A program made the translations under genes and the position numbers. Positions 562 through 36,385 of a stretch of DNA of 36,601 nt are shown one piece after another (position 1 is the first letter of the stretch; every line of letters starts with the position of its first letter). Location: assembly GCA_007375725.1 (NCBI GenBank), contig VMEV01000011.1:1-36601 (forward strand). The letters are read 5' to 3'. Under the pieces are notes generated by a model. That model searched no databases. It had not been told where the DNA came from and saw only the letters and a list, made by a program, of their open reading frames with translations. This DNA comes from Parcubacteria group bacterium Greene0416_36 (GTDB taxonomy: Bacteria; Patescibacteriota; Patescibacteriia; VMEV01).

Positions 562-2019
562 TTATAGGAACGAGTTTGACGACACCGGCGGCAAGTATTC
601 TCCGATATGTTCGCGTTTCCACCATGCGCCGGTTTGTTTTTTTTCTTCGGGGGTTGTGAATTGATAGCGGTAAAATTGGGCGCGGATAAAACTGGGAGGA
701 GACTCTGGAAAAGGATTGGTGCCGAGAAGTTTTATTATTTGGGGATCTCCTCTTAGTAATTTTTGTACGAAATTGATAAACCAGGGTTCGTATCCATACA
801 TTTTGATTTTTTTATCTGTTATTTTCACTGAAAAAGGCAGGAACCACATGAGCCAATCCAAACGCAGGTGGTAGGGTGCCACTTGTGGCGGGGTTCTTTG
901 GATATTTCCGGGTTTGCCTTTCCATTCGTATTCTTTCCATTGGCTTCCGGCGGAAAGAATCGGAGAGTCTGTACCCTCGAGAATGATTTCGTAGCGTTTT
1001 TGGGTCACGGATCCAAAAGCGCCGTAGGTATTGACGAGATGAAAGGGATTATAGCTGTAGTTCATGAGTTGATTGCGGGAGAACAAATTGAGAATCGGCT
1101 GGATGCTCAAGAGGGTCGTTACACCGGCTAGCGCGAGCAGGATTAGATTATAAAAATGAGGAATAGCTGAGCCAGAAGCAATAGTAGATAGGGGCAAAAA
1201 GAAGCCTAACTGAGCATCGTTGAGCGCGGTAATGCCCAAGACTATAGTCAGCCAATTGAGCCAAGAATAATTTCCGCTCACGATCAGCCAGAATTGGTGG
1301 AAAATAATAAGTCCGCCGCAGATCCCGGCTATCGGTTGGGGGGCGAAAAGTCCAAATGGAACAATAATCTGGACAAAGTGGCTAAATAAAATGCTGAATT
1401 GATGAATGATTTTGGGGAAGTGATGAAAATACCAGCTCAAAGGATTGGGGAGGGGCTGGGTTTCGTAGTGATAGAAAAGACAGGTCAATTTTTGCCAGCA
1501 TTCATCGTGTCGCAGTTTGATCAGGCCTGCCCCCAGCTCGGTCCGAAAAAGCATCCAGCGGAGGATCAAGATCGGGATAATAGGCGTTTGCCATGAGGCG
1601 GGACCCAGAAATGCGGCAAAACATCCAGCTTCTAGGAGCATGGATTCCCATCCGAATGCGTAAAAAACCTGTCCGACATTTACGATTGAGAGGTAGATAA
1701 ACCAGAGGGCAAGCCATATTCCCATGGAAAGCCACCATGAGCCTTGGTCAGGTAGTCCTAATAATACCGCGGCTGATAATGCGGCTCCGAGAATGGCCAG
1801 CGCTCTCAAGAAACGATCGGAATAATGCCAATGAAAAATACTGGGAGACTGCCAAAATGAGGCTCTTTTGACAAATTGGAACGCCGGCAGCAATCCTTTT
1901 TCTCCCAAAAGAGCAGGGAATTGTTTCCATGCCGAGATGAAAGCCACGAGGTAGATTCCGGCTAAGGCATGCTGGAAGATCCAACGCACCCAGTTTAAGT
2001 CTCCAAAATAGGATTCCAT
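562..2019 (-). CDS. lipase maturation factor (LMF)-family-like polytopic membrane protein
   Basis: 485-aa multi-TM ORF; motifs such as YAFGWESMLLEAGCFAAFLGP, ILRWMLFRTELGAGLIKLRHDECW and PLPNPLSWYFHHFPK match the LMF1/2-like family as I know it. Confidence 0.85.
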   Translation of the reverse strand: MESYFGDLNWVRWIFQHALAGIYLVAFISAWKQFPALLGEKGLLPAFQFVKRASFWQSPSIFHWHYSDRFLRALAILGAALSAAVLLGLPDQGSWWLSMGIWLALWFIYLSIVNVGQVFYAFGWESMLLEAGCFAAFLGPASWQTPIIPILILRWMLFRTELGAGLIKLRHDECWQKLTCLFYHYETQPLPNPLSWYFHHFPKIIHQFSILFSHFVQIIVPFGLFAPQPIAGICGGLIIFHQFWLIVSGNYSWLNWLTIVLGITALNDAQLGFFLPLSTIASGSAIPHFYNLILLALAGVTTLLSIQPILNLFSRNQLMNYSYNPFHLVNTYGAFGSVTQKRYEIILEGTDSPILSAGSQWKEYEWKGKPGNIQRTPPQVAPYHLRLDWLMWFLPFSVKITDKKIKMYGYEPWFINFVQKLLRGDPQIIKLLGTNPFPESPPSFIRAQFYRYQFTTPEEKKQTGAWWKREHIGEYLPPVSSNSFL

Positions 2020-2120
2020 AAGGGAGAGTTATGTATATTGATGTCTATATTGTAATATAGAAATGTCGAGTTATCTATAAATTTGATAAATTAATTATTA
2101 AGAGATTTAGTCTTTTTTAT

Positions 2121-3017
2121 ATGCTGCCAAAATTAAATAAACCGTCGGACGCGAGTCCATCATCGGGGAAAATGCCTCGTGCATATTGGGTGAAGACTTT
2201 TGTTTGTCTGGTTGTTTTTTGGGCCGCGATGGCTTTTTTCGGCTTAGTTTGTAGGGAATTGGTGGACAATTATTTTATTCTGCTGCTCCCTTCCGCGGGG
2301 GTTACGATCAGCTGGATTGTCCGCCTATTGATGGGTTCCTTATTTGTGGGTTTGAGCACTGGGATTTTGGTCATGCTGGTGCGGCCTGCGTGGGTCGTCA
2401 TCACGGCCTATATCATCGGCTCCATCCTTTTTGCGTTGATGTTGGGGGCTGGGTTTTCCGGCTGGATCGTGGCTTTGATTTTTGCCGCGGCACTCACGGT
2501 GCATTTTTGGATTGCCGAGCGGCAGATGAATAATCAAATTCACTATTCGATTCATCCTCTCTCGGATCTGAAGCTTTTTTTATTTGCCTGTATCGCGGGA
2601 TTGTCAAGCATCGCTTTTGGTCTGGGTTATCAGGCTGATGTTGCTCGTCGACAATATGCCATTCCTCCTGAGATTCGAAAACTCGCCTTAGATTCTTCGA
2701 CAAAACAGTTTGGGATTGTATTGGAAGTCTTGAAAATCGGAGCTGCCCAGAGGCAAGTCTTCATGGGAAATACGGAGAAAAGTATTGCCGCCGCGCTGGA
2801 GGGTATGGAACAACAATTAAAATCTTATGCGTCCGTGATCCCATTAGTATTGGGTGCTGTGCTTTTCGCGCTGCTCTTGCCTTTCTTTTTTCTCTTGTCG
2901 ATTCTCGAGGTCTTGGGATTGGCTATTCTCATGTTTTTCCTGCGTCTTTTGGGCTTTGCACATGTGCGTACCGAGATGCTGGAAGTGGAGAGATTAACAT
3001 TGCACAATCTCAAATGA
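2121..3017 (+). CDS. polytopic membrane protein of unknown function
   Basis: 298-aa ORF with several hydrophobic segments, ending in TGA just before a bidirectional terminator. Confidence 0.65.
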   Translation: MLPKLNKPSDASPSSGKMPRAYWVKTFVCLVVFWAAMAFFGLVCRELVDNYFILLLPSAGVTISWIVRLLMGSLFVGLSTGILVMLVRPAWVVITAYIIGSILFALMLGAGFSGWIVALIFAAALTVHFWIAERQMNNQIHYSIHPLSDLKLFLFACIAGLSSIAFGLGYQADVARRQYAIPPEIRKLALDSSTKQFGIVLEVLKIGAAQRQVFMGNTEKSIAAALEGMEQQLKSYASVIPLVLGAVLFALLLPFFFLLSILEVLGLAILMFFLRLLGFAHVRTEMLEVERLTLHNLK

Positions 3018-14276: not shown

Positions 14277-14750
14277 TCATTGCCACAATCCCACTCTTTC
14301 TTGTTTCGCTATTTGTTCGGCAGCCTGAAATTCTGATTGTTTGTCATAGGGGACTTCTTCATCATACGTATATTCGTACGCGAAGCCTTCTTCAACCAGT
14401 TGTTCATTGATATTTTTTCCATTCAAAAAAATATACCGCAGCAATCTGTGATATTTGTCCCGATTATCTTGATTGGTATCCGATTCCATTTCGATTTTTT
14501 GTCCTTCGAGCAGTTCGCGTGTTCTCTGGCAGGCTTCTCTGGCGAGCCACTGTGGTTTTTTTCCGTGATTATGGAGTTCTGGAGTATCTATTCCGATCAT
14601 CCGGACCTTCTCTGTCTTTTGAGTATTCATCATTTTGACTTCCAGCGTGTCTCCATCAATCACTCTCATCACTAATGCGGTTTCAGCCGAAATAAAAGAG
14701 GCTGGAAATAGGCATAAAAAGAACAGTATTCCGACGGCTATTTTTTCCAT
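14277..14750 (-). CDS. secreted thermonuclease (SNase-like) family protein
   Basis: Signal peptide then VMRVIDGDTLEVK…VRMIGIDTPEL…DKYHRLLRYIFLNGKNINEQLVEEGFAY. Confidence 0.9.
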   Translation of the reverse strand: MEKIAVGILFFLCLFPASFISAETALVMRVIDGDTLEVKMMNTQKTEKVRMIGIDTPELHNHGKKPQWLAREACQRTRELLEGQKIEMESDTNQDNRDKYHRLLRYIFLNGKNINEQLVEEGFAYEYTYDEEVPYDKQSEFQAAEQIAKQERVGLWQ

Positions 14751-16111: not shown

Positions 16112-16200
16112 GCAACAAATCCCTCCCCAACCCTCCCTTTGACAAGGGAGGGGGTAACAGCCTCCCCCTTGTCAAAGGGGGACTGAGGGGGATTTGTTGC
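16112..16200 (+). repeat. interspersed double-hairpin repeat, copy R1
   Basis: gcaacaaatccctccccaaccctccctttgacaagggaggg…cccccttgtcaaagggggactgagggggatttgttgc. Confidence 0.9.
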
Positions 16201-16713
16201 TTACGTAGGCCTCGTTATCTTAAACCCCTCAGAGTATTCTCCTGTCGAGAAATCCAGCTCGAGGCTCGTGAGCTGTTTTTTTTGTTTTGCTGGGATCAGA
16301 ATCTTGAGGGATCCGATTTTGATCTCGTCGCAGTCCGGAGTTTTTTCGGTGGTGAAATCCAGAGAATAGTTATCCTCTTCGAAATCATCTTTGAACACGC
16401 CGATTTCTAGGTACTGGTCGGGATTTTCTTCTTCTTTGAGAATATCGGTGATCTCGGCCATAGCATCAGGCGTGATCGATATTCCGTATTGTTTTATATT
16501 CTCCTCGTATTTCTGGTATTTTTGGTTGATTTCGGAGATAATTTGATTGACGTTTTGGTCCGTGAGACCGTGGCTTTTGGCTCCGTCGCGGAGATTTTCG
16601 AGTTCCGCTCCGTGGCAGGACGTGCAGTGGAGTCCGTGTCCGGTCATGACTGACTCGGCTCCGGGATAAATCTTGAGTATTTCGGAAATGGTTTGTGTGG
16701 GGGAGAATAACAT
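16201..16713 (-). CDS. DUF1858-like domain fused to an A-type Fe-S carrier (IscA/HesB)-like domain
   Basis: N-terminal TISEILKIYPGAESVMTGHGLHCTSCHGAELENLRDGAKSHGL is DUF1858-like; C-terminal ISITPDAMAEITDIL…YLEIGVF…YSLDFTTEKTPDCDEIKIGSLKILI…LELDFSTGEYSEGFKITRP follows IscA-like fold signatures. Confidence 0.75.
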   Translation of the reverse strand: MLFSPTQTISEILKIYPGAESVMTGHGLHCTSCHGAELENLRDGAKSHGLTDQNVNQIISEINQKYQKYEENIKQYGISITPDAMAEITDILKEEENPDQYLEIGVFKDDFEEDNYSLDFTTEKTPDCDEIKIGSLKILIPAKQKKQLTSLELDFSTGEYSEGFKITRPT

Positions 16714-16738: not shown

Positions 16739-16828
16739 GCAACAAACAACAAATCCCCCTTAATCCCCCTTTGACAAGGGGGAGACAGTTCCCTCCCTTG
16801 TCAAAGGGAGGGTTAGGGAGGGATTTTT
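16739..16828 (-). repeat. interspersed double-hairpin repeat, copy R2 (inverted relative to R1)
   Basis: gcaacaaacaacaaatccccct…ctttgacaagggggagacagttccctcccttgtcaaagggagggttagggagggattttta. Confidence 0.9.
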
Positions 16829-22425: not shown

Positions 22426-22701
22426 ATGAAATATATGCAAGATCAAACAAAAAAACAATTGATGCGCCGCTTGAAGATTATCGAAGGGCAAGTGAGGGGG
22501 CTACATGAAATGATAGAGAAAGAGACGTATTGCATCGATGTTATTACGCAAACGTCAGCAACAAAGCAGGCATTGTGCAATGTAGAAGATTTGCTTTTGG
22601 AGAATCATTTGGGTACTTGCTTACTTCGACAAATTGAATCGGGCAATACAAAAAAAGCGAAAGATGAAATTCTCAAGGTGTATAAGCTTAAAAGAAAATA
22701 A
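22426..22701 (+). CDS. csoR: CsoR/FrmR-family metal-sensing repressor (copper type by ligand pattern)
   Basis: MRRLKIIEGQVRGLHEMIEKETYCIDVITQTSATKQALCNVEDLLLENHLGTCL carries the C…H…C ligand pattern of Cu(I)-CsoR. Confidence 0.9.
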   Translation: MKYMQDQTKKQLMRRLKIIEGQVRGLHEMIEKETYCIDVITQTSATKQALCNVEDLLLENHLGTCLLRQIESGNTKKAKDEILKVYKLKRK

Positions 22702-22702
22702 T

Positions 22703-24994
22703 ATGTCCTCTCATACCTATAAAATCAAAGGCATGCACTGCGCCTCATGCGCGGCCACGCTTGAAAAAGCTTTCAAAAAAACAGAAGGAGTGACTTCTGC
22801 GGAAGTGAATTATGGAACCGAGACAGCCAAGCTCGGCTATGACGATACAAAAATAACTCCGGATTATCTCTTAAAAAAAATTGAGCCGCTGGGCTATTCT
22901 TTGATTATTCCAACGGCTGGAGAGATGGGCATGTCGGAGAGCGAACATGCCGCTCATCTGGGAATCGGCCAATCGAAAAAGGAGAAGATTGAGGAACTTA
23001 GCGTATTCAAAAGAAAGGTCATGTCAGTTATTCCGCTAGCCGCATTCAGCCTTTTTGTGATGGGGTGGGATATCTTGGCTCAGTTTAATATAATTTCTGC
23101 AGCTCCTGAAATGTGGAGAGAATTTTTCCATCATCTGTTTCCGATTTTTGCCACTTATACTTTATTTATCGTCGGTCAGCCTTATCTTGTCGGCATTTAT
23201 CGTTTTTTGCGCTCTGGAAGTGCCAATATGGATACCCTCATCGGCATTGGGACTTTGGCCGCTTTTATCTATAGTTTTATTGTTTCAGCTTTCGAGGAGC
23301 CCCTGCGATCTTTTATTAATGTCGAGCATACTTACTATGATGTGACCATTGTGGTTATTGCTTTTATTACCTTGGGTAAATATCTAGAGGCCAAAAGCAA
23401 GCTCAAAACTGGAGATGCCATCGAAAAATTGCTGGGTCTTCAGGTAAAAACTGCGCTTGTGGTGCTCCATAATAAAGAGATGGAGATTCCGATTGGCGAG
23501 GTCGCAAAAGGAGATATCCTGATCGTCAAGCCGGGCGGAAAAATTCCGGTGGATGGAGTGATTATCGAAGGAACGCCCTTTATAGACGAGGCGATGGTAA
23601 CAGGGGAGCCAATGCCGGCCCAAAAGCATGAGGGAGATGGGGTTATTGCCGGAACTCTAAACACTACGGGTGTATTTACTTTCAAGGCAACCAAGGTGGG
23701 GTCGGAAACCCTTCTTTCTCACATCATTCAAATGGTCAGCCAGGCGCAGGCCAGCAAGGCGCCTATTCAGGCCCTAGCAGATAAAATATCAGCAGTATTT
23801 GTACCCATTGTACTTGTTTTGTCGGTCTTATCGCTTTTGGCCTGGCTGATTGTGGGAACTGAGTATTTAGGGTTTTCTCAGGCGCTTTCTTATGGGTTGG
23901 TTTCTTTTGTAGGGATTCTTGTTATCGCTTGCCCTTGCGCGTTAGGTTTGGCCACGCCTACCGCGATTATTGTCGGCGTGGGCAAAGGGGCCCGCGAAGG
24001 AATCTTAGTCAAAGATGCCGCTACTCTTGAAAAGCTCCATAAGGTTGATGTTGTTGTGGTGGATAAGACGGGGACGATTACAAAGGGCAAGCCAGAGTTG
24101 GTTTCCATCAATGCTTTGAATGGAATCCGAGAAAAGGAATTGATTTCTATCCTTGCTTCGCTGGAAGCTCAATCAGAACATCCTATTGCCCATGCGATTG
24201 TTTCATACGCCCAAAAAAATAAGCTGGAAATCTTGCCGGTCAAGCAATTTGAAATCATCAAAGGAATGGGATTGAAAGGCAAAATTGGAAATATTGAATA
24301 CTTCGCTGGAAACGCGAAATTTTTAGAAAATTTGAGCCTGAATATAGAGAAAAAATCATTTGAAAAAGATACTCTTGAAGGCAAAACCCCGGTGATTTTG
24401 GCCACAAAAGACAAAATATTGGGAATCGTCATGGTGGCGGATGCTCTCAAGAGCGAAGCTAAAGAGGCGGTATCGAAACTCCACAAACTCGGCATCAGGG
24501 TCATTATGGCTACGGGAGACGACAAAAATACCGCGCGTTATATTGCCAGTCAAGCGGGAATTGATGAGTTTGTGGCCGAAGTGCTGCCTGCCGATAAATT
24601 GCTGAAGATTAAGGAATTGCAGTCAAAGGGATTCATTGTGGCTATGGCGGGGGATGGAGTGAATGATGCGCCGGCGCTCGCTCAGGCTGACGTGGGGATC
24701 GCCATGTCAACCGGAACGGATGTTGCCATCGAATCCGCAGGCATTACTCTCTTGAACGGTGATATTTCCAAGCTGGTAAAGGCCATTCGCCTTTCAAAGT
24801 TCACCATGCGCGGCATCCGGCAGAATTTATTTTGGGCATTTATTTATAATATAATTGGCATTCCTCTTGCGGGGGGAGCTTTGTATCCGATTTTCGGCTG
24901 GCTTTTAAATCCAATATTTGCGGGATTGGCCATGGCTTTTTCAAGCGTCTCGGTTGTATCTAATTCTCTTCGGCTCAAATCTAAAAAATTATAA
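22703..24994 (+). CDS. copA: copper-translocating P1B-type ATPase
   Basis: N-terminal GMHCASC HMA motif, IACPCALGLATP, DKTGTITKGKP, GDGVNDAPALAQADVGIAM. Start taken at ATG 22703 rather than 22634. Confidence 0.93.
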   Translation: MSSHTYKIKGMHCASCAATLEKAFKKTEGVTSAEVNYGTETAKLGYDDTKITPDYLLKKIEPLGYSLIIPTAGEMGMSESEHAAHLGIGQSKKEKIEELSVFKRKVMSVIPLAAFSLFVMGWDILAQFNIISAAPEMWREFFHHLFPIFATYTLFIVGQPYLVGIYRFLRSGSANMDTLIGIGTLAAFIYSFIVSAFEEPLRSFINVEHTYYDVTIVVIAFITLGKYLEAKSKLKTGDAIEKLLGLQVKTALVVLHNKEMEIPIGEVAKGDILIVKPGGKIPVDGVIIEGTPFIDEAMVTGEPMPAQKHEGDGVIAGTLNTTGVFTFKATKVGSETLLSHIIQMVSQAQASKAPIQALADKISAVFVPIVLVLSVLSLLAWLIVGTEYLGFSQALSYGLVSFVGILVIACPCALGLATPTAIIVGVGKGAREGILVKDAATLEKLHKVDVVVVDKTGTITKGKPELVSINALNGIREKELISILASLEAQSEHPIAHAIVSYAQKNKLEILPVKQFEIIKGMGLKGKIGNIEYFAGNAKFLENLSLNIEKKSFEKDTLEGKTPVILATKDKILGIVMVADALKSEAKEAVSKLHKLGIRVIMATGDDKNTARYIASQAGIDEFVAEVLPADKLLKIKELQSKGFIVAMAGDGVNDAPALAQADVGIAMSTGTDVAIESAGITLLNGDISKLVKAIRLSKFTMRGIRQNLFWAFIYNIIGIPLAGGALYPIFGWLLNPIFAGLAMAFSSVSVVSNSLRLKSKKL

Positions 24995-25008
24995 TTAACT
25001 TCAATCAT

Positions 25009-25140
25009 ATGTGGAACATGATGACAAATATAGGAAGTTTTTGTGGAGTGGGAATGCTGGGTGGGATTGTTATCAGCGCGCTTATTATCGTAGTTTTGGT
25101 TTTGCTTATTATATGGCTATGGAAACAAATCCAAAAATAG
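25009..25140 (+). CDS. 43-aa single-TM peptide in the copper operon (below ORF-track cutoff)
   Basis: MWNMMTNIGSFCGVGMLGGIVISALIIVVLVLLIIWLWKQIQK*, a clean hydrophobic helix with polar ends, overlapping the start of the next gene. Confidence 0.6.
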   Translation: MWNMMTNIGSFCGVGMLGGIVISALIIVVLVLLIIWLWKQIQK

Positions 25141-26171
25141 AGGGAACTCTATTAAAACAGAAGATTTATACTTTTCATGTGCATGGCATGCATTGTCATT
25201 CCTGCGTTTTACTTACCCAAAGTGAGCTTGTGGAACATCCCAAAGTCTCATCGGTGAAATCCAGCTTAAAGACTCGTTCGGTTGAGATTTGCGGCGATTT
25301 TTGCGATAGGTCTTCCCATGACATTCTTGAAGAACTTAATCGTTTGCTTTCCCGGCATTCGCTTTCCCAAGAAAAGCAAAATAAAGAAGTAAATTGGCAT
25401 GAATTTGTAACGGCTATTCCGATCGCTTTAGGATTCGTATTTTTGTTTATTCTCCTGCAAAAAATAGGGATTGTGAATTTAGTCAGTACGAGTAATGTCA
25501 CTTATGGGACCGCATTTGTAATAGGTGTCATGGCTTCGCTTTCCACCTGTATGGCGGTTGTCGGAGGGTTGGTATTATCAATGTCCTCGACTTTTGCGCG
25601 CGAAGGCAATAATATCCGTCCTCAGCTTTTTTTTCATGCGGGACGGCTAGTTTCGTTTTTTATTCTAGGTGGCGTTATTGGAGCGGTTGGATCTTTTTTT
25701 CAATTTGGAGTAGTCGGCACTTCTATTTTGGGAATGGTTATTGGCTTGGTCATGCTTATTTTGGGTATTAATTTATTAGATGTTTTTCATTGGGCCAAAA
25801 GATTCGAGCCAACTATGCCAAAGTTTTTTTCGGAAAAAGCTCTCGCTATCGTAAAGTCAAGCCATTCATTCACGCCTCTATTTATTGGCGTCGCGACATT
25901 TTTTCTTCCCTGCGGGTTCACGCAAGCCATGCAGATTTATACGCTTTCCACAGGAAGTTTTTTCCAAGGAGCCCTTACAATGTTTGCGTTTGCATTGGGA
26001 ACTTTGCCTGTACTGGCCTTAATTAGTTTCAGTTCTTTGGGAATTCATGGTAAATCAAATAAGGGAATCTTTTTCAAAAGCGCTGGGCTGATTGTCATTT
26101 TCTTTGCGATTTTTAATATTATTAATAGCATGGTAGCAATCGGATGGATTCCGCCGGTATTTAATTTTTAG
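25113..26171 (+). CDS. HMA domain fused to a TauE/SafE (UreH-like) membrane domain
   Basis: FHVHGMHCHSCVLLTQSELVEHPKVSSVKSS (HMA) then a six-TM-like region with GVMASLSTCMAVVGGLVLSMSSTFA…FHAGRLVSFFILGGVIGAVGS and FFLPCGFTQAMQIYTLSTGSFFQGALTMFAFALGTLPVL. Start at 25113 or 25119. Confidence 0.85.
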   Translation: MAMETNPKIEGTLLKQKIYTFHVHGMHCHSCVLLTQSELVEHPKVSSVKSSLKTRSVEICGDFCDRSSHDILEELNRLLSRHSLSQEKQNKEVNWHEFVTAIPIALGFVFLFILLQKIGIVNLVSTSNVTYGTAFVIGVMASLSTCMAVVGGLVLSMSSTFAREGNNIRPQLFFHAGRLVSFFILGGVIGAVGSFFQFGVVGTSILGMVIGLVMLILGINLLDVFHWAKRFEPTMPKFFSEKALAIVKSSHSFTPLFIGVATFFLPCGFTQAMQIYTLSTGSFFQGALTMFAFALGTLPVLALISFSSLGIHGKSNKGIFFKSAGLIVIFFAIFNIINSMVAIGWIPPVFNF

Positions 26172-26173
26172 AT

Positions 26174-26599
26174 ATGTCATCAGTTGTAATTTCTATCAAT
26201 ATGAAATCCATTGCGATATCTATTATATTGACAATATTGTTTGTCGGAGGAGCTAGTTTCCTTTTGCGGGAGGGAGATTCAAATTCAGCCAATATCAAAG
26301 ATCCACAAAGCAATATTTCTATTGTCGATGGAAAGCAGATTATAGAAGTGACTGCTAAAGGAGGTTATTCACCAAGAAATATGGTTGCAAAGGCGAATAT
26401 GCCAACTGTCCTCAAGATGAAAACGAATGGCACATTTGATTGCTCTTCGGCCTTCACGATTCCAAGTCTCGGTTATCGGAAAAACCTTCCTGCTTCAGGA
26501 GAAACTCTCATCAATGTGCCTCCTCAAAAAGAGGGTTCCACTTTGCGAGGCCTCTGTTCGATGGGAATGTATCATTTTGCGGTGGATTTCAATTTGTGA
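26174..26599 (+). CDS. membrane-anchored cupredoxin-domain protein
   Basis: N-terminal TM; IEVTAKGGYSPRNMVAKANMPTVLKMKTNGTFDCSSAFTIPSL…LRGLCSMGMYHFAVDF matches a cupredoxin core with a CSMGM ligand loop. Confidence 0.8.
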   Translation: MSSVVISINMKSIAISIILTILFVGGASFLLREGDSNSANIKDPQSNISIVDGKQIIEVTAKGGYSPRNMVAKANMPTVLKMKTNGTFDCSSAFTIPSLGYRKNLPASGETLINVPPQKEGSTLRGLCSMGMYHFAVDFNL

Positions 26600-27100: not shown

Positions 27101-27184
27101 ACAAATCTCTCCCCAACCCTCCCTTTGACAAGGGAGGGAGCTTGTTTCCCCCTTGTCAAAGGGGGATTAAGGGGGATTTGTTGC
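27101..27184 (+). repeat. interspersed double-hairpin repeat, copy R3
   Basis: acaaatctctccccaaccctccctttgacaagggaggg…cccccttgtcaaagggggattaagggggatttgttgc. Confidence 0.9.
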
Positions 27185-27199
27185 TACGAATAACAATTT

Positions 27200-27748
27200 A
27201 TGCGAGTACGAAAAAAGACTTATCGACTGCTATTTGCTTTGCTTGCCGGGCTTGTTGTGTTTTTATTTCAGGGAGAATTGCTGGTGAGTCTGGGGGTAGA
27301 AAATACAGGCGCGGTTGAGGATTCGAGGGGACTTTATCCCGTTACTCGGGTGGTGGATGGGGATACGATCCATGTTATGCTGGAGGGAAAGGACGAGACG
27401 ATCCGGTTTATCGGGATCAATACGCCCGAGACTAAGGATCCAAGGAAGAAAATAGAGTGTTTTGGCACAGAGGCCAGTGCTTTTGCCAAAAGTTTCTTGG
27501 AGGGTCAGAGGGTGCGTCTGGAGGCGGATTCCACGCAAGAAGATCGTGATAAATACGGCAGACTGCTTCGATATGTGTATTTGGAGGACGGGACTTTGGT
27601 GAATGAGATTTTGATTCGCGAGGGATACGCTCACGAATACACTTATAAAATCCCGTATCGTTTCGTCGATCAATTTAACAATGCCGAGGCATTGGCAGAA
27701 AAAGATAAAAAAGGATTATGGGGGGAGAAATGCACCTCCGTAAATTAA
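27200..27748 (+). CDS. thermonuclease (SNase-like) family protein, second paralogue
   Basis: Hydrophobic N-terminus; VTRVVDGDTIHVM…IRFIGINTPETKDPRK…DKYGRLLRYVYLEDGTLVNEILIREGYAHEYTY. Confidence 0.9.
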   Translation: MRVRKKTYRLLFALLAGLVVFLFQGELLVSLGVENTGAVEDSRGLYPVTRVVDGDTIHVMLEGKDETIRFIGINTPETKDPRKKIECFGTEASAFAKSFLEGQRVRLEADSTQEDRDKYGRLLRYVYLEDGTLVNEILIREGYAHEYTYKIPYRFVDQFNNAEALAEKDKKGLWGEKCTSVN

Positions 27749-28711: not shown

Positions 28712-28800
28712 ACAACAAATCCCTCCCCAACCCTCCCTTTGACAAAGGAGGGGGTAGCAGCCTCCCCCTTGTCAAAGGGGGACTGAGGGGGATTTGTTGC
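28712..28800 (+). repeat. interspersed double-hairpin repeat, copy R4
   Basis: acaacaaatccctccccaaccctccctttgacaaaggaggg…cccccttgtcaaagggggactgagggggatttgttgc. Confidence 0.9.
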
Positions 28801-31612: not shown

Positions 31613-31693
31613 ATCCCTCCCCAACCCTCCCTTTGACAAGGGAGGGAGCTTATTTCCCCCTTGTCAAAGGGGGAATAAGGGGGATTTGTTGTT
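31607..31693 (+). repeat. interspersed double-hairpin repeat, copy R5 (overlaps the P-type ATPase stop codon)
   Basis: ttgtaaatccctccccaaccctccctttgacaagggaggg…cccccttgtcaaagggggaataagggggatttgttgtt. Confidence 0.9.
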
Positions 31694-34488: not shown

Positions 34489-34573
34489 GCAACAAATCCC
34501 CCTTAGTCCCCTTTGACAAGGGGGAGACTGCTCCCTCCCTTGTCAAAGGGAGGGCTGGGGAGGGATTTGTTGT
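34489..34573 (-). repeat. interspersed double-hairpin repeat, copy R6 (inverted)
   Basis: gcaacaaatcccccttagtcccctttgacaagggggagactgctccctcccttgtcaaagggagggctggggagggatttgttg. Confidence 0.9.
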
Positions 34574-35965: not shown

Positions 35966-36385
35966 ATGTTTTCCCTCTCCACAAAAGGCGATTATGGTCT
36001 CGCGATGATGGTTTATCTCGCTGGCAGTGGACCGAATAAAGCGGTTTCTATTGTGGATATGGCTCGAGATTTGGGGCTTCCCAAGCAATACTTGTCTCAT
36101 GTGATTTTGCCGCTTCGCCGAAAAGGATTGGTCAAAAGCTTCGAGGGCAAAAGCGGGGGATATGCTTTGGCGAAGAATGCTTCCAGTATCACGATTCTCG
36201 AGATTATTGAAGCCTTGGAAGGCAAAATTACCGTGGTCCGATGTTTGTCTTTGCCTGATGCCAAAGAAAAGCTCGCCTGCGCGGCCCTCTGTCAAACGCG
36301 GGGGCTTTGGGAAGGAGTCAATGAGAAGATTCGGGAGTATTTGGGCGGGATGACTTTGGCCGGGTTTGTAGGGAAGGGGCAATAA
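35966..36385 (+). CDS. Rrf2-family transcriptional regulator (possible Fe-S type)
   Basis: LSTKGDYGLAMMVYLA…ARDLGLPKQYLSHVILPLRRKGLVKSFEGKSGGYALAK; three Cys in VRCLSLPDAKEKLACAALC. Confidence 0.9.
   Translation: MFSLSTKGDYGLAMMVYLAGSGPNKAVSIVDMARDLGLPKQYLSHVILPLRRKGLVKSFEGKSGGYALAKNASSITILEIIEALEGKITVVRCLSLPDAKEKLACAALCQTRGLWEGVNEKIREYLGGMTLAGFVGKGQ

Follow-up and report, generated by a model that had tools for sequence, protein, structure and literature searches.

A recurrent fusion of DUF1858 with an often degenerate A-type carrier domain, linked to suf genes in Patescibacteria and DPANN archaea

Introduction

The Suf scaffold is present in many Patescibacteria, and classical A-type carriers and NFU are rare across the sampled genomes of this phylum, which makes the route of iron-sulfur (Fe-S) cluster delivery a question. 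In A-type carriers, the first ligand cysteine lies on the GCSG loop, and the second and third ligands lie on a C-terminal CGCG tail. A locus of Parcubacteria group bacterium Greene0416_36 raises the question of what such a carrier fold does when none of these cysteines is left. It lies in a stretch of 36,601 nucleotides (contig VMEV01000011.1), the whole of which is called the window here, and it encodes a DUF1858 domain with a CxxC motif joined to a degenerate HesB/IscA domain. A preliminary description, made from the letters alone, had suggested that the protein is a repurposed Fe-S carrier fold that may use its N-terminal CxxC instead. The features of the gene are as follows:

16201..16713, minus strand: DUF1858-degenerate A-type carrier fusion, 170 aa (ATG at 16713, TAA at 16203-16201)
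16525..16701, minus strand: DUF1858 / TIGR03980 domain, residues 5-63, all-helical (PF08984, TIGR03980, fold match 2k5e/2k53)
16615..16626, minus strand: CxxC motif C30-T-S-C33, retained in 32/33 fusions
16207..16482, minus strand: degenerate HesB/IscA (A-type carrier) domain, residues 78-169 (TIGR00049 1e-9; IscA 1r94 TM 0.88)
16366..16389, minus strand: site of the GCSG loop, here DDFEEDNY (residues 109-116), without cysteine (alignments)
16330..16332, minus strand: C128 (in TPDCDE), the sole cysteine beyond the CxxC, unconserved and at no ligand position (alignments)
16201..16209, minus strand: chain end, PT followed by the stop codon, with the CGCG tail (ligands 2 and 3) missing (alignments)

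Domains and fold of the window protein

The open reading frame had been placed correctly in the preliminary description, and both of its domain assignments were borne out. PF08984 (DUF1858) matches residues 5-50 (2.9e-10; 40.5 bits against a curated cut-off of 32.2) and TIGR03980 matches residues 5-63 (2.7e-13; 49.7 bits against 44.95). The GLxCxxC motif of DUF1858 is present as GLHCTSC (residues 27-33), and Foldseek identifies the N-terminal part with the DUF1858 structures 2k5e and 2k53. A profile search with PF01106 gave no match to an Nfu domain within the protein.

The remainder, which had been read as an IscA/HesB domain, is matched by the A-type carrier family TIGR00049, whereas PF01521 (1.1e-5, 26.1 bits) falls 0.2 bits short of its gathering score of 26.3, and the protein scores below the equivalog cut-offs of A-type carriers. 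An AlphaFold2 model (pLDDT 89.9, pTM 0.66; 25 relatives in the alignment) has E. coli IscA (1r94) as its best PDB match in Foldseek, with a TM-score of 0.88 (target), an rmsd of 1.3 Å and an E value of 8e-7, followed by SufA (2d2a), T. elongatus IscA with [2Fe-2S] (1x0g) and then DsrR (2k4z). The fold is thus IscA-like, and not of the unrelated kind that had been named as speaking against the preliminary description. A family profile search by sequence recovers the same proteins as the fold search.

The cysteine count also agrees with what had been noticed at the outset. The protein has three cysteines, C30 and C33 of the CTSC motif and C128, and none of the three ligand cysteines of A-type carriers (GCSG ... 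CGC), its last residues being FKITRPT.

Recurrence of the fusion

Relatives were sought among 380 genomes of the phylum to which the window belongs (the phylum sample). PF01521 alone overlooks the window protein and similar proteins of its class, and TIGR00049 and a family profile were therefore used. TIGR00049 is positive in 13 of the 380 genomes, and all of these matches are DUF1858 fusions except one stand-alone carrier (in G442); the family profile finds the fusion in 19 genomes and DUF1858 alone in 43 more. PF01521 matches in two genomes were set aside because their contigs look like contaminants and the genes do not look patescibacterial: those in G102 (L010, L011) lie on GC-rich contigs, and that in G160 (L009/L036, contig C36) lies on an archaeal-like trp contig and shows a frame break between DUF1858 and HesB.

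A single-sequence pattern scan of GTDB genomes gave no relatives, but a profile scan of GTDB species recovered 26 full-length fusions, whose hosts are Peribacteria, Peregrinibacteria, Gracilibacteria, Aenigmatarchaeota, Woesearchaeota and Micrarchaeota, together with one record titled Staskawiczbacteria and one PVC-group bacterium. The fusion is therefore no one-off; it recurs in Patescibacteria and DPANN archaea and is confirmed as a real design. No description of a DUF1858-A-type fusion was found in the literature searched on DUF1858.

The CxxC is kept and the carrier ligands are often lost

Conservation was counted in an alignment of 33 fusions, the window protein included. The first HesB ligand is kept in 16 of them; eight lack it and have a cysteine-rich tail, and nine, among them the window protein, lack all three ligands as well as a cysteine tail. 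The same chain end as in the window protein is found in L069, L072, L075, L076, L047 and L050, and L072, L074 and L076 contain exactly two cysteines each, both in the CxxC. Only one fusion, L043, has an incomplete CxxC, and it keeps the full HesB triad. Since the CxxC is constant and the HesB ligands are dispensable among the fusions, the reading of a repurposed carrier fold leaning on its N-terminal CxxC gains strength from the 32 other proteins.

In a tree computed without the ligand and CxxC columns, explaining the loss of the first ligand takes three changes or more, and a tree that unites all ligand-less rows in one clade is rejected (p-AU 1e-4). The window row nests among the DUF1858 fusions and pairs with L076 (95/80), although its exact place is unsure because its branch is the second longest in the tree. 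Its nearest relatives, L069, L072 and L076, are all ligand-less. The window protein itself retains the family-invariant residues in an intact reading frame.

Two variants of the cysteine pattern were observed. At the L043 locus (1495-2094, minus strand), the HesB ligands are intact (GGCSG, CSCG) and the first CxxC cysteine of DUF1858 is lost. The family f142 (L048-L051, L126-L131) lacks the GCSG cysteine, mostly has cysteine-rich C-terminal tails and often bears a cysteine on the strand that follows (GGFCMEF); these strand and tail cysteines are perhaps a relocated ligand set.

Link to suf genes and searches for other carriers

The nearest relatives of the window protein stand in suf operons. 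L076 and L069 share the gene order Rrf2-SufC-SufB-SufD-SufS-SufU-fusion, with the fusion last and, in L076, overlapping the sufU stop codon; L072 has SufD-S-U-fusion, again with the fusion last, and its contig ends at SufD. Two archaeal fusions with full ligands are placed similarly, L064 after SufB-D-S-U-C and L066 adjoining sufB. In the window genome, a complete sufC-B-D-S-U set lies on contig C22, where no carrier gene was found in the suf stretch that was read, and the fusion lies elsewhere (C24) as a solitary gene flanked by genes for a DHH protein and a CCA-adding enzyme. In two further groups of Patescibacteria (L052-L056; L048-L051), too, the fusions have no suf genes next to them.

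Across the phylum sample, SufB/D are present in 18 of 19 genomes with the fusion versus 117 of 361 others (Fisher 5e-8, with no correction for kinship), and all six fusion-bearing families contain SufB/D genomes. SufB/D also occur in 32 of the 43 genomes with DUF1858 only, and the two lie no more than 6 kb apart in 25 of the 31 such genomes with positions listed. In L002 and L003, which belong to the window's class, DUF1858 (in L003 at 1468-2171, minus strand) lies downstream of SufS, with SufU on one side and a ferredoxin on the other.

Other candidate carriers are scarce. Searches with TIGR00049, PF01106 and DUF59 found no second A-type carrier, no NFU and no SufT/DUF59 in the window genome. 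NFU occurs in none of 44 genomes with DUF1858 or the fusion versus 6 of 29 Suf genomes without them (Fisher 0.003), where the 44 counted as Suf genomes include one (G266) with the fusion and without SufB/D, and five of the six NFU-positive genomes belong to one class.

Several other observations concern these loci. The DUF1858 of L002 (1480-2088, minus strand) is fused to an IscU/SufU protein (NifU_N + DUF1858). In the window genome, a gene for a 23S rRNA intervening-sequence protein (PF05635; L106:5260-5634, minus strand) lies between sufS and sufU. The window encodes an Rrf2-family regulator at 35966-36385 (plus strand), 216 bases from the contig end, and regulators resembling it (37% identity in the case of L076) head the suf operons of L069 and L076. 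An end-to-end join of C24 and C22 would place this Rrf2 gene ahead of the suf operon in the same way, but no overlap of their ends was found.

Repeats and other genes in the window

Palindromic intergenic repeats (CCCCCTTTGACAAGGGGGA and kin) are found in the window, in most cases immediately 3' of genes, with 11 half-sites where 0.01 are expected. The fusion gene is flanked by two of them in opposite orientations, one of which adjoins its stop codon:

16133-16200: palindromic repeat (abutting the stop codon)
16765-16810: palindromic repeat
27119-27165: palindromic repeat
28763-28781: palindromic repeat
31627-31673: palindromic repeat
34507-34552: palindromic repeat

A likely copper-handling cluster occupies 22426-26599 (plus strand), with genes for a metal-sensitive repressor (PF02583) and a heavy-metal P-type ATPase and one for a membrane protein whose N-terminal domain is metal-binding-like. 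Two staphylococcal-nuclease-like secreted proteins are encoded in this one 36 kb contig, at 14277-14750 (minus strand; confirmed as PF00565) and at 27200-27748 (plus strand).

Possible functions of the fusion

The fusion is best explained as an accessory factor of the Suf pathway built on the NfuA plan, with the CxxC of DUF1858 doing thiol chemistry, a reading to which we give a probability of about one half. In its favour are the IscA-like fold, a CxxC that is kept where the HesB ligands were repeatedly lost, the suf operons of close relatives, the co-occurrence with SufB/D, the pattern of NFU and the failure to find another classical carrier in the window genome; the site of the window copy outside its suf operon, the fusions without suf neighbours in other groups and the long branch of the window row weigh against it. 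The A-type domain of NfuA is described as 'degenerated': it directs NfuA to apo-proteins and does not itself bind the cluster, a [4Fe-4S] carried by the Nfu domain with its CxxC (PMC8593673), and P. aeruginosa NfuA requires its CxxC (PMC6084964). Likewise, the degenerate A-type domain of the fusion would no longer hold a cluster and would keep its fold for docking to scaffold or client proteins, and probably also for oligomerising, perhaps as a dimer, and the CxxC would carry out the thiol chemistry. Most likely, two subunits would hold a cluster (or the iron or sulfur of one) between their CxxC motifs; as L076 has two cysteines, a cluster there would need to bridge two subunits, as it does in holo-Nfu (PMC8593673). 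We infer cluster binding at the CxxC, dimerisation and the direction of transfer. The CxxC may instead be a thiol/disulfide redox or sulfur-relay centre. No biochemistry on DUF1858 as a cluster carrier was found in the literature searched, and DUF1858 exists in CxxU selenoprotein forms (PMC9312934), so that redox chemistry fits at least as well as cluster binding.

A bolder form of this reading, which we offer only tentatively, takes DUF1858 for a so far unrecognised module for carrying Fe-S clusters, which in Patescibacteria and some DPANN archaea, with their minimal Suf systems, replaces A-type carriers and Nfu. The fusions would then record a stepwise take-over, from full ligands plus CxxC, through a cysteine-rich tail combined with a first loop that has no ligand, to the CxxC alone.

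The chief alternative, possible if doubtful, is that the fusion serves Suf as a thiol-disulfide or electron-transfer partner, with a HesB domain that only docks and a CxxC that cycles between dithiol and disulfide or carries a persulfide, feeding electrons or sulfur. Besides the listed CxxU selenoproteins, the name of TIGR03980 (redox disulfide domain), the ferredoxin adjoining the DUF1858 genes of L002 and L003, the FAD/NAD reductase beside a second DUF1858 gene of L062 and a DsbA-like or VKOR-like neighbour common to L069, L072 and L076 are consistent with such a role. These redox genes are generic, however, and redox chemistry alone leaves both the fusion to a carrier fold and the apparent exclusion with NFU unexplained. 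The second DUF1858 ORF of L062 (7889-8858, plus strand) is stand-alone, with an FAD/NAD reductase and a ferredoxin-like ORF adjoining, on an archaeal contig that also carries a fusion.

A role outside Fe-S supply, in which the HesB domain is a protein-binding regulator and DUF1858 a redox switch, appears improbable. DsrR is among the fold matches and, according to the title of Grimm 2010 (cited in PMC11406059), is IscA-like without Fe or Fe-S binding; YneR/PdhI (9a4q) inhibits pyruvate dehydrogenase (PMC10090944); and the window gene is solitary. The window domain is nevertheless closer to IscA (27% identity, TM 0.88) than to DsrR (17%) or YneR (12%), the tree puts the protein among the DUF1858 fusions, and its nearest relatives reside in suf operons, which indicates Fe-S work.

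That the window copy is a decaying or truncated gene whose ligand tail was removed by the repeat at its stop codon is very unlikely: at most a base or two separates the repeat at 16133-16200 from the stop codon, an inverted copy lies upstream and the branch is long, but six fusions, compared for chain end alone, end in the same way, the first ligand is also lost although it is distant from the repeat, and the reading frame is intact, with family-invariant residues retained and a confident AlphaFold2 model.

Significance and comparison with known systems

Ligand-less carrier folds (NfuA, DsrR) and DUF1858 are already known. Apparently new, in that neither was found described in the literature searched, are a suf-linked family of DUF1858-HesB fusions that recurs in both Patescibacteria and DPANN archaea, and the stepwise loss of ligands with the CxxC retained. 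A suf-linked CxxC domain that outlasts the carrier ligands is a concrete, testable candidate for cluster delivery, and offers a first functional context for DUF1858, a domain of unknown function.

Proteins of the DUF1858/TIGR03980 type resemble the fusion in their N-terminal domain with a CxxC; elsewhere, they are usually stand-alone or joined to DUF2249, as in DrpB (PMC6282519), to SufT (PMC4982691) or, in L002, to IscU. A weak profile match to the DUF1858 part (9r7j, E 0.003) is the N-terminal domain of ScdA/RIC, an iron-sulfur repair protein, but ScdA, which has been reported as a nitrite reductase (PMC12412097), has a hemerythrin-like di-iron domain that is absent from the fusion.

DsrR, a regulator of sulfur oxidation, and YneR/PdhI, a regulator of pyruvate dehydrogenase, likewise employ HesB folds outside Fe-S carriage, and DsrR shares with the window protein an IscA-like fold without ligand cysteines. 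Both are single-domain proteins, unlike the fusion, and more remote in sequence and fold score; no dsr genes were recognised in the ORF listing of the window. IscA, SufA and ErpA (PF01521, TIGR00049) are like residues 78-169 in fold and sequence, but have the three ligand cysteines and no extra N-terminal domain.

NfuA of γ-proteobacteria likewise combines a ligand-less carrier-fold domain with a small CxxC domain in an Fe-S context. It differs in having Nfu in place of DUF1858 as the CxxC domain, and in domain order, which is reversed in the fusion, where the CxxC domain comes first. The fusion is thus analogous to NfuA rather than a member of its family, and is apparently a second, separate instance of the same plan, in which a worn-out carrier fold docks and another domain does the chemistry.
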